Shown: positions 56,424 to 63,893 of the stretch, in pieces
Position numbering within the stretch: the stretch's first letter is position 1
Layout of the letters: each line of letters opens with the position of its first letter
Assembly (NCBI GenBank): GCA_003244205.1
Contig: QHBW01000019.1
Span: 62,001 to 126,000, forward strand
Reading direction: 5' to 3'
DNA from: Solirubrobacterales bacterium
GTDB lineage: Bacteria > Actinomycetota > Thermoleophilia > Solirubrobacterales > Solirubrobacteraceae
Length of the DNA: 64,000 bases
Program-made: the position numbers and the translations under genes
The notes under the pieces: model-generated
The model's database searches: none
Told to the model about the DNA's origin: nothing
The model's input: only the letters and a program-made list of their open reading frames with translations

Positions 56424-56497
56424 GGTGGGCGTAGCTCAGCTGGTAGAGCTCCGGGTTGTGGTCCCGGCGGTCGGGGGTTCGAGTCCCCTCGCTCACC
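56424..56497 (+). tRNA. tRNA-His (anticodon GTG)
   Basis: Includes the extra G-1 (56424) opposite C73. Acceptor GTGGGCG/CGCTCAC with one G-T wobble. Anticodon stem CCGGG/CCCGG around TTGTGGT with GTG at 56458-56460. T-arm GGGGG-TTCGAGT-CCCCT. A TAGATT (56408-56413) just upstream is a plausible -10. It marks the left edge of the decayed region. Confidence 0.97.
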
Positions 56498-56834
56498 CTT
56501 TCGCCGAAGTAGCTGCAAACAGGCGTGTTCTACGCTTGTGACGACCTGACACAAGCGGCGCCAAGGTACCAATGGGGTACCAAACTTTTGGAGCCGCGGA
56601 GACTTTTCGACCTCGGGCGGTGGGGATGCGGGTCTCGTGGCGTTGGCCCAGGCGGGTCGCACGCGTGCGAGTGGATTCACGCGAAAGCGCAACTCCTATC
56701 CGAGCCGAAGTGAATCGGCGGCCGGGGTCGGCGCCTGCACTCGACGCCCATAGCTCTTGACCATCGTTCTTCGGTGGCGTGGTTGCCGTGGTGCTGCGTT
56801 AGGTTGGCCGCGTTATCCGGACGGGAGAGGACAC
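56498..56834 (+). other. Gap between tRNA-His and the SDR pseudogene
   Basis: About 337 nt without a recognisable gene on either strand. It contains two GGTACC sites 11 nt apart (56565-56580). No second copy of the tRNA-His 3' end is visible to mark an attachment site. Confidence 0.5.
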
Positions 56835-57660
56835 ATGAGCGTCACCGACGCGAACCAGGTGGTCGCCGTGACCGGCGGCGCAAGCGGGCTTGGCCATGCC
56901 ACCGCCCGCGAGCTATCCAGGCGCGGAGCTCGTGTCGCGGTGATCGATCTGGATGGACAGGCCGCTGAGGCTGCAGTCAGAGATCTGCCCGGTGAGTCGA
57001 TTGCGATCGGGGCGGACGTCACAGACAGCGACGCGATGCGGCAGGCCTTCGAGCAGATCGCCGCGAGATTTGGAGCAGGCGATGTCGTTATGGCTGGCGC
57101 GGGGATCGTCGGCTGGGGACCCGCCCTCGTGGTCGACCGCGAGACGTGGGTGAGGACGATCGAGACCAATGTCCTTGGGACCTGGCGCACGGTCCACGCC
57201 GCGGCTCCCGCACCTGCTGGCATCCAAGGGCTACCTACTGATCGTCTCGTCGGGTTTTGCCTCCAGCCCGGGACCGGCCGTCTCGGCTTACGCCGCGAGC
57301 AAGGCAGCCGTCGAGTCATTAGGCCGCACGCTGATGAGGATCGAGCTCGCTCATCATGGCGTCGCGGTCGGAGTGCTACTACACGTTCCTGGACACCCCG
57401 ATGGTCGATGCGATCGAAGCAAACCCAGCCGCGACGCGCGCACGAGCGGCGATGCCGCCGCCGATCAGGCGCACCTACCCGCTGGACAAGGCGGTCAAGG
57501 CGACCGTCGCCGGCATCGACCGGCGAGCGTCACGCATCATCTTCCCGGGCTCTTACGGTTGGGGCTGCTACTGCGGGGTTTCTTTGGGCCGCGCACCGAT
57601 GGGGCGGCCATGAAGGCGATGCCAGAAGTCGAACGCATCGCGCAGGAACAGGCTGGTAAC
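56835..57660 (+). pseudogene. Short-chain dehydrogenase/reductase with at least three frameshifts
   Basis: From ATG 56835: VVAVTGGASGLGHATARELS, DVVMAGAGIVGWGP and ETNVLGTWRTVHAA are in frame. After an extra base at about 57212 the protein continues LPHLLASKGYLLIVSSGFAS and YAASKAAVESLGRTL (YxxxK). A second break near 57369 leads to YYTFLDTPMVDAIEANP and SRIIFPGS, and a third near 57550 to GFFGPRTDGAAMKAMPEVE. The ribosome-binding site and all family motifs survive, so decay is recent or the bases are miscalled. It resembles the larger SDR with a C-terminal membrane-associated tail. Confidence 0.8.
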
Positions 57661-57917: not shown

Positions 57918-58566
57918 ATGGAAGCGGTGTTGTTGGATGTGGCTGGGCGGCGGCGCTCACCGGCGACGTTCGCATGGTTTCACTCGGATCGCGCGCCGCG
58001 GAATAAGGGGAAGTGATATCCCGCTGACCCGCCAAGAGTTGAGGAGATCGTCGCGGTGATGCGCGAGGCTGGCCGGACGGTTCATGGCGATCGGTGGCGA
58101 GCGTTGATTGTTCTGCTGTGGCGGTCGGGGTTGGCGGATCCAGGAGGCGCTTGATCTCGCCGAGGTCGACCTCGACTACGGTCGCGGAGCGGTGCTCGTG
58201 CGTCACAGAAAGGGCGATAAGCGCCGCGAGGTCGGGATGGATGCCTGGGGTTGGGACCACCTGCGTACTTGGTCGACGCACCGCGCGGAGCTCCCGGTCG
58301 GCAAGCTGCTGTGCGTGATCGCGGGCCCGACGCGCGGCCGGCCGTGGAATGGCGCAGCCGCGCGCGAGCAGCTCGCCTGGATCGCTGCGCGGGCGGGTGT
58401 TCGGCGCCGGTTCGCGCCACATCAGCTTCGTCACGCCCATGCTGTTGAAATGGCGCGCGAGGGGGTGCCGCTCAACGTCATCCAACGCCAGCTCGGTCAC
58501 GCGGATCTCGGCGTCACCTCCGTCTATCTGCAGGGCGTCGACAACGCCGAAATCATCGACACGATC
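57918..58566 (+). pseudogene. Tyrosine recombinase/integrase with internal stop, frameshift and truncated end
   Basis: ATG 57918 (GGAGGG upstream) gives MEAVLLDVAGRRRSPAT, then an in-frame TGA at 58014-58016, then YPADPPRVEEIVAVMREAGR and RWRALIVLLWRSGL. One extra base at about 58131 breaks the box I Arg region (LRIQEALDLAEVDLD). Beyond it box II HQLRHAHAVEMAREG and the Tyr nucleophile in LGHADLGVTSVYLQG are intact. Homology ends at NAEIIDTI, where it runs into antisense pgi at about 58566 (the open frame continues to 58593). It belongs to a recombinase type common in actinobacteria. Confidence 0.85.
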
Positions 58567-58757
58567 TCCTCGGTGACGCGGTGCTTGGAGTAGTCAAGGA
58601 CCAGGTCACCGGCACTGGCGACCATCCGGGTCGCGCGCTCGGGATCCCGTGCGAACAGCTCGCGCAGATGGACCTCCGCGACCTGCTCGTGATGGGCTCC
58701 AAGCGCCGCCCATTCCGCGCTTGCGGCAATCGGCGCTTCAGCGCTCACGTCTACCAC
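58566..58757 (-). pseudogene. pgi: Glucose-6-phosphate isomerase, N-terminal stub
   Basis: From GTG 58757 the first ~64 residues match Pgi: EWAALGAHHEQVAEVHLREL, FARDPERATRM and LVLDYSKHRVTEE. Homology stops at about 58566, where the recombinase 3' end begins on the other strand. It follows tal by 50 nt in the same direction, the usual pentose-phosphate/glycolysis pairing. No other part of pgi is found in the window, so this copy is dead. Confidence 0.8.
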
Positions 58758-58806: not shown

Positions 58807-59895
58807 TCACGACGCCGCGGCCGTGACGGCGGCCGCTTTTGAGTGGATCGAGGCCATCAGGTCCTCCCAGGCGCTCACGAACGACGCTGCCCCTTCGGTC
58901 TGCAGCGCGGCGGCCAGCTCCGCGACGTCGACCCCGGCCGCTTCGATCTTGGCGATCGTCGTATCGGCGTCGCCGCCGTCGGCCGGCAGCATCTCGCCCA
59001 CCTTGCCGTGGTCGGCGAACGCCTCCAGCGTCGCCGGCGGGATCGTGTTGATCGTTTCCGGCGCCGCCAGCGCCTCGAGGTAGTAGGTGTCCGGCTTGGC
59101 CGGGTCCTTGGTCCCTGTGCTGGCGAACAGAAGCCGCTGCGGGCGGGCGCCCTGCGTCGCGAGGGCACGCCAGCCCTCCGAGTTGATGATCTGGCGATAG
59201 CTGCGGTAGGCCTGCTTTGCCACCGCGATCCCCAGCCGGTCCTTGAGCTCCGCCGGGAGCGCCTCGACGCTGGCAACGTCCCAGCGCGAGACGAAGATCG
59301 ACGCCACCGACGCCACCGCCAGGTCGAGGTGAGCCGCGCTGCGGCGCTGCAACCCTCGCTGGTAGGCGCCCGCGGCAGCCCTGTACTGGGAAGCGGAGAA
59401 CAGCAGCGTGACGTTGACCGGAACGCCGGCAAACGTCAGCTCCTCGATCGCCGGCACGCCCTCGGCGGTGCCGGGGATCTTGATGAACAGGTTCGGCGTC
59501 GCGGCCTGGCGATGCAGCGCCTTCGCCTGGGCGATCGAGCCCGCGGTGTCGTGCGCGAGACGCGGCGAGACCTCTAGCGAGACCCAGCCGTCCCTGCCCG
59601 CGGTGTCGGCCCAGACTGGCTTGAACAGCGCCGCAGCCTTGCGCAGGTCGTCGAGCGCCAGCTCGAAGAACTGCTCCTCGGTGTCGAGACCCCCGGCCGC
59701 CAGCTCCCGCTCCTGCTCGTCGTAGGCGTCGCTCCCGGTGATCGCCTTGTCGAAAATCGAGGGATTCGAGGTCAGGCCGGTGACCGCGGCCTGCTCGATA
59801 TAGCGCGCGAGCTGGCCACCGGTGAGCAGCGCTCGTGTGATGTTGTCGAGCCATAGGCTCTGGCCCGCCTCGTGAAGCTGCTGTGCTGCGTTCAT
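58807..59895 (-). CDS. tal: Transaldolase
   Basis: A 362-residue transaldolase (bacterial type II length), moving dihydroxyacetone units between sugar phosphates in the pentose phosphate pathway. SLWLDNITRALLTGG and GLTSNPSIFDKAI at the N-terminus, the Schiff-base Lys in NLFIKIPGTAEGVPAIEEL, VNVTLLFSASQYRA, and LLFASTGTKDPAKPDTYYLE. No frameshifts, in contrast to its neighbours. ATG 59895 has GGAAGGAGC 4-5 nt upstream. Downstream is the truncated pgi. Confidence 0.95.
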   Translation of the reverse strand: MNAAQQLHEAGQSLWLDNITRALLTGGQLARYIEQAAVTGLTSNPSIFDKAITGSDAYDEQERELAAGGLDTEEQFFELALDDLRKAAALFKPVWADTAGRDGWVSLEVSPRLAHDTAGSIAQAKALHRQAATPNLFIKIPGTAEGVPAIEELTFAGVPVNVTLLFSASQYRAAAGAYQRGLQRRSAAHLDLAVASVASIFVSRWDVASVEALPAELKDRLGIAVAKQAYRSYRQIINSEGWRALATQGARPQRLLFASTGTKDPAKPDTYYLEALAAPETINTIPPATLEAFADHGKVGEMLPADGGDADTTIAKIEAAGVDVAELAAALQTEGAASFVSAWEDLMASIHSKAAAVTAAAS

Positions 59896-60055
59896 GCTTG
59901 CTCCTTCCGATGCCGATCGGCAGCGTGTGAATCAGGTCGCCATCGGACACCCTCGCGGGCAACGGTCGCGCACCGCGCTCCGGCCGTGGAGTCCAGGCTG
60001 GCGAGAGCCTGCGCGGGGTTCTGGAAGCTCACGGAAGTTGTGTTTGCGCGCTCGG

Positions 60056-60324
60056 CTACGACGCGTCGAGGGTCGTCTCGATGGGGACCGCCTGCTCACC
60101 CTGGGGCATGACGTCGGCGGCGTCGCCGACCTGGCCTGAGAGGTACGGCGCGAGGTAGCGTCCCGCGAGCTTGTCCGGTGGCCACCACAGAGCCTCTCCG
60201 GAGATCGTTGAGTCGTCGCCGGCGCTGCCGCTGATGTCGGCGCGCAGGTAGCGCTCGGGCCCACGATCAGCACCCGCTTCCGACCCCGTTCAGGGCAACC
60301 GCGACTGTGATCCTTGGCAGCCAT
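60056..60324 (-). pseudogene. C-terminal remnant of an FAD-dependent oxidoreductase-like protein
   Basis: From ATG 60324 (with TATACT 10 nt upstream, complement of 60335-60340) the frame reads MAAKDHSRGCPERGRKRVLI. After one base shift near 60270 it continues ERYLRADISGSAGDDS, GEALWWPPDKLAGRYLAPYL and ends VPIETTLDAS with TAG at 60056-60058. The LWWPP-x-K-(I/L)-AGRYLAPYL end resembles the C-terminus of actinobacterial sulfide:quinone reductase-like flavoproteins, from memory only. The rest of that protein is absent, so this is a deletion remnant. Confidence 0.4.
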
Positions 60325-60422
60325 CTCGCGCTCAAGTATAGTTTCTGAGGCCAGCCGGCCGCCTTCGTTAGGCCAGCGTTCGATGCCGGTCTCTTCCTGT
60401 GTCCGTTCCGCCCGTCGCCGCG

Positions 60423-60451
60423 CGGAACTCATCCTTTCGGAACTCATCCTT
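60423..60451. repeat. 14-bp direct repeat, two copies
   Basis: CGGAACTCATCCTT at 60423-60436 and again at 60438-60451. It lies in a 300-nt stretch (60325-60640) with no recognisable gene. Confidence 0.6.
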
Positions 60452-60668
60452 CTCTAGCGTCAGAGCCGGGCGGGAGTCTTACGTGATCCGCTCCTTGTCG
60501 ATCGTAAGAGATCGTCGCAGAACGACGCCAAGGGTTCATGCGCCGCGTGTCGTTCGCGGTGGGAGTCGACCGCCGCCGTGTCGGCGACAAGCCGCCGCGG
60601 CTGCTCTCAGGCCGGGGCGCTGAGCGATCGACGTCCGCCTGAAGCGCGCCTATGAGCCGGCGACCTCC

Positions 60669-60998
60669 GTGGATGGCTGTCGCGTGCTGGTGGACAGGTT
60701 GTGGCCACGCGAGGTCTCCCGCGCGCGAGCGAAGCTAGATCACTGGGAGAAGGAGCTGGCACCGAGCACCGAGCTCAGGAAGTGGTTTGGGCACGAGCCG
60801 AACCGCTTTGAGGAGTTTCGCCGGCGCTACGTCGAGGAGCTTCGCGGCCAGCGTCCGCGGTTGACGGCGCTCCGGCGCCAGGCGCGGGCCGGCACGTTGA
60901 CGCTCGTCTACGGCGCCCGCGACAGCGAGCACAACGAAGCGGTCGTCCTCGCGGAGGTCTTGCGGCGCGGACTGCCGAAGGCGCGGAGCCGGCGATGA
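60669..60998 (+). CDS. DUF488-family protein (YeaO-like), start uncertain
   Basis: About 109 residues. DGCRVLVDRLWPREVSRARAK, LDHWEKELAPSTELRKWFGH and RRRYVEELRGQ, LTLVYGARDSEHNEAVVL are the hallmarks of the YeaO-type DUF488 group. Homology extends upstream in frame (IDVRLKRAYEPATS), but no ATG/GTG/TTG precedes it before a stop. GTG 60669 is therefore an internal start of a probably 5'-damaged gene. Function of the family is not established. Confidence 0.7.
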   Translation: MDGCRVLVDRLWPREVSRARAKLDHWEKELAPSTELRKWFGHEPNRFEEFRRRYVEELRGQRPRLTALRRQARAGTLTLVYGARDSEHNEAVVLAEVLRRGLPKARSRR

Positions 60999-61338
60999 AT
61001 GTGGGTCCGAGGTGACCGTAAGAACCGCTTGCCGACTGACGCTATAGATGTGTGCAAGGCCGAACGCTACCGTGTGATATTCCGATCCCGCAAACGGATC
61101 AAGCGCTCGGGCGCGGCGCACGAGCGTGTCCAGCTCCCTCTCCTCTGTCAGGTCGCGCGTGCTCCAACCGCCACGTCCAGGCATGACCAGGTGGCTCGCC
61201 GATCGGCGGGGCACCCGGTCGCCGTGCGTGAACATTGAGCGATCGCGAGGGGCGATGTCTGCCCGCACCGGAGGAGTCTCGTGACGACGCAGAGCCGCAC
61301 ACTGACCGTCGAGATCGCCGCGGTCGATCGACGCGGAC
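60999..61338. other. Gap with no recognisable gene
   Basis: About 340 nt between the DUF488 gene and the dehydrogenase fragments. Open frames exist on both strands but none resembles a protein I know. Confidence 0.4.
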
Positions 61339-61438
61339 TTGGTGGAGCCGATTCGTATGGTCGCTGACGGGGTCGAAGTGCTCTACAAGCCGGATCTGCT
61401 GCCTCCGATCCGCTACCCCGGTGATCATCAGGGGGTTG
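61339..61438 (+). pseudogene. 2-hydroxyacid dehydrogenase, N-terminal fragment
   Basis: About 33 codons reading MVADGVEVLYKPDLLPPIRY and PGDHQG, as found early in actinobacterial D-isomer-specific 2-hydroxyacid dehydrogenases (VLYEPDLLPPxRYPxDH). It ends at about 61438, where the C-terminal fragment begins on the opposite strand. Confidence 0.6.
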
Positions 61439-61618
61439 AGGGGTTCGGTCGCGACCCCCTCCAGCGCTGCACCCTTCAGACGCCGCTCGCGGAGCCCTGC
61501 ACGAGCGCCGGCTCGTCGATCGCCCCGCCACGGCCCGCGTTGACGAGAATCGCGCCCGGCGCGATCACCGTGAACGCATCGGAGTCGAGCATCCCACGGG
61601 TCTCCTCGGTCCGCCTGT
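61437..61618 (-). pseudogene. 2-hydroxyacid dehydrogenase, C-terminal fragment in inverted orientation
   Basis: On the - strand: [37 protein letters not shown], then after one base shift LRERRLKGAALEGVATEPLN. These are the conserved NAD-domain segments (LVNxARGxxVDExAL; GAALDVFxxEPL) of the same family as the + strand fragment. The middle of the gene is missing. N- and C-terminal parts meet at about 61438 in opposite directions, implying an inversion plus deletion. Confidence 0.65.
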
Positions 61619-61645
61619 GAAATCGAACAGCGAGGAGATAGCCGG

Positions 61646-61783
61646 ATGCAACTGGGAATGATCGGGTTGGGCCGGATGGGGTCGAACCTCGTGCGGCGCC
61701 TGCTGCCGGCGGGCCACGAATGCGTTGTCTACGACGTGAACGCGGATGCCGTCACCGCGCTCGGGGAGCTGATGGAGGCTTAG
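61646..61783 (+). pseudogene. gnd: 6-phosphogluconate dehydrogenase, 45-codon N-terminal stub
   Basis: ATG 61646 with GAGGAGA upstream encodes [33 protein letters not shown], then TALGELMEA and TAG at 61781-61783. This is the NADP-binding start of Gnd (GLGxMGxNLxRRL). The remaining ~250-430 residues are absent. Together with pgi it shows loss of pentose-phosphate genes in this copy. Confidence 0.75.
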
Positions 61784-62524: not shown

Positions 62525-62652
62525 CGGGTCATAACGATCGCGTTGCCCAGCTCATGCGTCTAGCGTCCCCGCGCGCCCAGGTCTTACCCCTCCCGCGCGT
62601 GAGGTAAGAGGCTCGCGCCGCTCGACGCTGGTGGATCACGCCAATGTCAGCC

Positions 62653-63045
62653 ATGACCGAGTGCACCCTCAAGCTCCGCCGTTTTCGATCAGGAGGCGGT
62701 CAGGGGGCTCTACTGGCAGGAGTTCATGGTGGCGCCGGAGGGTCACCGGTCGGTGCTCGACGCGATCCTCAAGCAGCGCGACGAGGTCGACGGCTCGATC
62801 GGCATCCGTTGCTCGTGCCTGCAGGCGAGCTGGGGTCCTGCGGCGTGCGGATCAACGACAAGCCGGGCATGGCGTGTCACAGCCAGCTCCAGCGCGCGGC
62901 CCAGGCCGGTCCCGAGGGCAGCCGAGTGATTACGGTCGAGCCGATGGGCAACATGCCGGCGATCCGCCATCTGATCGTCGACGTGGACGCGGTGCACTGG
63001 AAGAAGATCCAGCGCGTCACGCCGTGGCTAATCAACAAGGAGTCT
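62653..63045 (+). pseudogene. sdhB: Succinate dehydrogenase iron-sulfur subunit, frameshifted and 3' truncated
   Basis: From ATG 62653: TECTLKLRRF, then (extra base near 62690) FDQEAVRGLYWQEFMVAPEG, SVLDAILKQRDEVDGSIGIR and CSCLQAS. After a missing base near 62833: GSCGVRINDKPGMACHSQLQ, VITVEPMGNMPAIRHLIVDV and DAVHWKKIQRVTPWLINKE. These are the [2Fe-2S] domain and linker of SdhB. The C-terminal ferredoxin-like domain with the [4Fe-4S]/[3Fe-4S] Cys clusters is missing, replaced by the next remnant at about 63050. Confidence 0.8.
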
Positions 63046-63062
63046 GCGCCGGCTCGTGGACC

Positions 63063-63893
63063 CGATCGATCGCCGGCAGCGGCGCTGCGAGCTCAACCTG
63101 TGCGTCAGCGGCTACCTGCGGCGCAGGGGCGATCTTCCGAGCACAACCAGGAGCTCGCCGACACGCTCAACGCGCGCACGTTCGCGCTCGCCCAGCAGAC
63201 CGACGGCGAGCTGATGTTGAACATCTGCTCCACCTGTCACGGGCGCAGGTCGAGCGCCAGCAGCGCCTCGACGCCAACATCGCCTACCGCGAGCAGGTCA
63301 GCGGCGTCGCTGCAATCCGAAGGCCTGTCCTACCAGCCGGCGCTGACCAACAAGAACTTCCTCTGGCTGCTGGTCGAGGAGATCGGCCTGCCCGCGGTTC
63401 AAGCCAAGGTCGTGCGCCCGCTCGCCGGTCTCAGGGCGGGCCCCTTCTACGGTTGCTACGTCGTGCGCCCGATGGACCAGCTTCGGATCGACGACGACCA
63501 TCCACGCCACCGCTACCTGCACTGGGTGATCGAGGCGCCCGGCGGCACCGTCGTGGACTCCGCCGGCGTCTACAGTGCTGCGGCTTTCCGATCATCACGA
63601 TGAGCAAGGAGGCCTCGCTGCGCCAGGCCAGCCGCCACCTCGGCGACGTGCTCGACGCCGGCGCCGACTGCCTCGTCACCCCCCGCCCCCTCTGCCACCT
63701 CAACCTCGACCTGCAGCAGCCGCTCGCGGCGAAGGTCGTCAGCCGCCAGCTCGGCCTTTCCGGTGCTGTACCTTCCCCAGCTCCTCGGCTCGCGCTCAGG
63801 CTCGACCCCGAGCAGCTCGGCATGAGCAAGCACGTGGTGCGCCCGGCGTCGGTGATCGACTGGAGCACCGCGGTCGTCGCCGCGAGGGCGTAA
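63063..63893 (+). pseudogene. HdrB/SdhE-like CCG-domain protein, frameshifted and 5' truncated
   Basis: Pieces in at least two frames: CGAGAIF, HNQELADTLNARTFALAQQT, LMLNICSTCHG, VERQQRLDANIAYREQV, LTNKNFLWLLVEEIGLP, GPFYGCYVVRPMDQL, CCGFPIITMSKEASLRQASR, DAGADCLVTPRPLCHLNLDL and a C-terminus ending STAVVAARA (stop 63891). This is the CCG-domain family of heterodisulfide reductase B and the SdhE-type subunit of non-classical succinate dehydrogenases. The usual TPCPLCH has become TPRPLCH, losing one cluster Cys. The N-terminal ~50 residues are gone. Context with sdhB supports the SdhE reading. Confidence 0.75.

Follow-up and report, generated by a model that had tools for sequence, protein, structure and literature searches.

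The closest described relatives of the recombinase at this locus are the XerC/XerD-like tyrosine recombinases (PF00589), with which it shares a recognisable catalytic domain, but it differs from them in belonging to a family of ~235 residues that consists of the catalytic domain only and is present in many relatives, and in being a pseudogene in the window (the whole stretch of 64,000 nucleotides analysed here). The glucose-6-phosphate isomerase side may be compared with the bifunctional transaldolase/phosphoglucose isomerase (NF007080, PRK09533), as a gene on another contig of the same bin (C46) contains both domains and scores above the curated cut-off, whereas in the window transaldolase (tal) and isomerase (pgi) are separate and pgi is a stump. 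A literature search on the transaldolase/PGI fusion enzyme found nothing usable. With regard to the join itself, spontaneous deletions in Salmonella have been recognised, as against chimeric reads, by junction microhomology of at least 8 bp (PMC3411829). That work surveyed spontaneous rearrangements in this genus. The locus resembles the deletion scars of bacterial pseudogenes, which arise by illegitimate recombination at sites of little or no microhomology, in the abrupt loss of gene ends, the repeat-free join and the damaged neighbours; its join lacks long microhomology.

The window very probably records an ordinary illegitimate deletion where an accessory cluster of pentose-phosphate and redox genes, itself decaying by serial deletion, begins; as a process, this is ordinary pseudogene formation.

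Junction of the recombinase and pgi remnants

The two truncated genes, their junction and the adjacent transaldolase gene are as follows.

57918..58565, plus strand: tyrosine recombinase pseudogene, with a TGA at ~58014, a frameshift at ~58130 and the final ~18 residues gone
58562..58566, no strand: junction, with at most 2 bp (TC, 58564-58565) attributable to both sides
58566..58757, minus strand: 5' stump of pgi, a standalone glucose-6-phosphate isomerase of about 540-550 aa in relatives (NF001211, E=2.2e-13; ORFs of relatives)
58807..59895, minus strand: intact transaldolase of 362 amino acids (NF002881; conserved-coding codon-position pattern)

When a 236-bp query across the junction was compared with 146 genomes of the same family, no match spanned the junction and none of these relatives had the same one. 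Matches on the recombinase side end at query positions 91-108, most commonly at 98 (window 58562), and those on the pgi side begin at positions 96-118, often at 101 (window 58565). The same edges are found in 41 relatives with a 701-base query, where the recombinase-type sequence ends at 58557-58566 and the pgi-type sequence starts at 58565 or later; the comparison with 146 genomes yielded more matches to either side. At the base level, the match of the recombinase to its relatives holds through ...GACACGATC (58565), after which the nearest intact copy, from genome G041, goes on as CACGGTCGCAGAGCC..., coding HGRRAPMMSASAALQI and a stop; the recombinases of relatives contain a conserved tail of the HARRAPMMPASAGL type after GACACGATC/GACACCGTC. 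Past the breakpoint the window reads TCCTCGGTGACG, the minus strand of which is pgi coding ...HRVTEE, and the match of pgi to its relatives starts at TCTCCTC (58564). The sequence common to both sides is thus 0-2 bp, a long repeat is absent, and 2 bp in common is the chance expectation. As the cut-offs in PMC3411829 are at least 8 bp, such a join speaks neither for nor against a genuine deletion. The junction shows no significant hairpin (z=-1.36) and no match to plasmids, and a 20-nt inverted repeat pairing 58041-58060 with the junction (85%) was judged to be due to chance.

The recombinase is encoded in two frames, 57918-58133 (the 5' part, with the internal TGA) and 58129-58566. Its catalytic domain is matched by PF00589 at 58108-58590 (E=3.9e-21; 76 bits, above the cut-off of 27.1), but with the TGA, the frameshift and the missing tail it possesses neither an uninterrupted frame nor the C-terminal end, and because of the 5' in-frame TGA and the frame change it is non-functional regardless of the 3' loss. 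Short tyrosine recombinases in relatives are often truncated or frameshifted as well, at differing positions (e.g. L136, L006, L008, L111 and L121), and no relatives of the recombinase were confirmed in viral contigs. A role as a tRNA-linked integrase was rejected, as the eight larger loci analysed in relatives include one copy with a tRNA within 2 kb and another with tRNAs at ~6 kb.

The pgi stump retains 64 of ~545 codons (58757-58566), which form the first part of ORF 58524-58757 before it runs antisense into the recombinase. It contains the N-terminal region with the LDYSK motif (positions 6-70 of 544 in NF001211) and scores 49.5 bits against the curated cut-off of 492, thus failing as a full-length enzyme; ~470 residues are gone, including the whole SIS region, and intact pgi ORFs in relatives have about 540-575 residues. 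The transaldolase is full length (residues 1-357; 444.7 bits against a cut-off of 367 for NF002881), and its differences from relatives cluster at third codon positions. Its best named relative (75% identity) is from Candidatus Aeolococcus gillhamiae, where the gene order is dehydrogenase-pgi-tal-gnd, and intact tal-pgi pairs are present in the relatives G103 (tal-pgi-gnd) and G021, with pgi directly after tal as in the window. The sequence-only reading had placed a shared breakpoint near 58566 and a destroyed pgi copy beside an intact transaldolase, and both are borne out by these results. It had also stated that each gene was cut at its 3' end, which holds in full for the large loss from pgi, but the recombinase lacks only its last ~18 residues and was already a pseudogene.

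Neighbouring scars and the accessory block

The features to the left of the recombinase and to the right of the transaldolase are as follows.

56425..56498, plus strand: tRNA-His (gtg), the left neighbour
56836..57613, plus strand: short-chain dehydrogenase pseudogene, frame broken several times
60044..60420, minus strand: FAD/NAD-linked oxidoreductase remnant that has lost 959 bp internally, at 60262/60264 (alignment to C56/G100:C251)
60669..60998, plus strand: DUF488-family gene, retained inside the remnant (PF22752, E=2.3e-35)
61325..61457, plus strand: 5' remnant of a D-2-hydroxyacid dehydrogenase (alignment)
61439..61611, minus strand: inverted internal piece of the same D-2-hydroxyacid dehydrogenase gene (alignment)
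61611..61623, no strand: deletion junction, ~3.06 kb missing relative to C56
61646..61780, plus strand: 5' stump of 6-phosphogluconate dehydrogenase (gnd; NF007161, E=1.1e-12), with a further 117-bp internal deletion

Positions 60044-61779 align with an intact homologue of the cluster (C56/G100:C251) at 80-92% identity; relative to this homologue, the window lacks 959, ~537, ~3060 and 117 bp, and a piece of 174 bp is inverted. The gap of ~3060 bp took the remaining part of the D-2-hydroxyacid dehydrogenase gene together with one complete transaldolase-PGI fusion. The junction at 58564 is thus one of several scars and not a single notable event. The inverted dehydrogenase piece (61439-61611) adjoins the 5' remnant of its own gene, and a weak similarity of ~19 nt at the point where the strand switches hints at a template-switch event. 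Farther to the right, an iron-sulfur/succinate-dehydrogenase-like gene (62644-63893) is split across two frames; in G132, G136 and G138 it forms two blocks that lie farther apart, which indicates that this part of the window has also lost DNA. In the cluster homologue of G132, a member of another genus, a separate deletion (L209, G132:C252, 15675-16334) has removed most of the transaldolase-PGI fusion gene, so that residues 1-164 of the dehydrogenase now continue in frame with residues 888-944 of the fusion protein.

From ~58.9 to ~77 kb (in window coordinates, thus extending past its right end), the contig contains blocks common to the accessory contigs of G132, G136, G138 and G100, in shuffled order, while the flank at 47-56.4 kb maps mostly to other contigs of these four genomes. 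Since synteny with the accessory contigs starts at the junction and the left flank maps elsewhere, the junction is placed on the border of an accessory block that varies between genomes. The pieces of the short-chain dehydrogenase in the left flank lie in three frames, only one of which is matched by adh_short (positions 120-176). No second copy of the 3' end of tRNA-His was found on the 170-kb contig with up to 3 mismatches allowed, and the tRNA was rejected as the integration site of an island, no repeat of its 3' end being present at a far edge in the 170 kb searched.

Origin of the join

Before the deletion, the plus-strand recombinase would have faced the 3' end of a minus-strand tal-pgi operon. 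The deletion would have taken the final ~18 codons of the recombinase, the spacer and pgi codons 65 to ~545, and the two stumps, sharing 0-2 bp, may have been joined tail to tail via end joining or replication slippage. We infer that one deletion was the sole cause, and selection on this copy of pgi may have been relaxed because another enzyme does the same job. As at deletion scars, a long repeat is absent from the join, and the bin yielded no 3' part of pgi. The search for this part, which the sequence-only reading had proposed, covered the 170-kb contig and the rest of the bin; the pgi N-terminus occurs at the junction only, and in a bin that is 93% complete a second piece of pgi could be hidden.

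An assembly chimera, in which sequences of unrelated origin meet at 58564, is improbable. The bin is metagenome-like, with 100 contigs and 4.97% contamination; at least one of its contigs, C56, is probably misbinned, and the junction is shared by none of the 146 relatives and lies where synteny with their accessory-cluster contigs begins. As no relative contains the same junction, comparison does not separate a one-off event from a local chimera. Against a misjoin, the junction lies inside the 170-kb contig without any N, G+C is 65-73% on both sides (in 500-base steps), both partners have decayed independently of the join, and similar joins are found within 3 kb. The bin contains no repeat of either side (the best other match being 82%), so that no long overlap was available for a misjoin, and nothing specific points to a chimera.

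The insertion of a recombinase-bearing element into pgi, with the far side lost or located elsewhere, is very unlikely. It would fit a recombinase that abuts the break, and a join that coincides with the edge of the accessory block ~2 kb downstream of tRNA-His, but the recombinase itself is cut, unlike in a clean insertion, most of its relatives are not near tRNAs, and the 3' end of the tRNA is unrepeated on the contig. As the rest of pgi was found neither on the 170-kb contig nor elsewhere in the bin, a deletion is preferred; of the deletion or insertion put forward by the sequence-only reading, the breakpoint and the deletion are retained and the insertion fits less well. An inversion or translocation whose two ends lie in the recombinase gene and in pgi is equally unlikely: the small inversion at 61439-61611 is nearby, but a search of the bin gave no reciprocal join of the recombinase tail to the 3' part of pgi.

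A further reading, also very unlikely, is that this family of short recombinases with only a catalytic domain itself promotes the loss and reshuffling of parts of the accessory pentose-phosphate cluster, in which case the adjacent breaks would be non-random.

Other predicted isomerase genes in the bin

The PGI profile matches two other loci in the bin, on contigs C46 and C56, both of which are transaldolase-PGI fusions; this search answers the proposal that a second pgi be looked for. The contig C56 (L141) is 99.7% identical across all of its 6982 bases to G100:C251, from a genome assigned to another genus of the family, and was thus rejected as proof of a native second PGI. It is probably a misbinned contig, a very recent transfer being less favoured, and this seeming backup copy should be treated with caution.

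The fusion gene on C46 encodes 922 residues, with TAL_FSA and PGI in one frame, and is assigned to NF007080 (1089 bits, the cut-off being 712); it adjoins a transketolase-like ORF. DNA homologous to C46 is present in 50 of the 146 family genomes at 67-78% identity, and none of the 146 contains a near-identical copy, which makes the C46 fusion probably native to the genome. Through this predicted bifunctional enzyme, shared by many relatives and well above its cut-off at full length, glucose-6-phosphate isomerase function is probably retained, and the loss of that function implied by the earlier interpretation is unsupported. What looks like the loss of a central enzyme of glycolysis is thus probably an accessory copy in decay, with a predicted isomerase still encoded in fusion with transaldolase; as the genome retains another gene predicted for the lost job, the stump in the window is attributed to ordinary genome decay.
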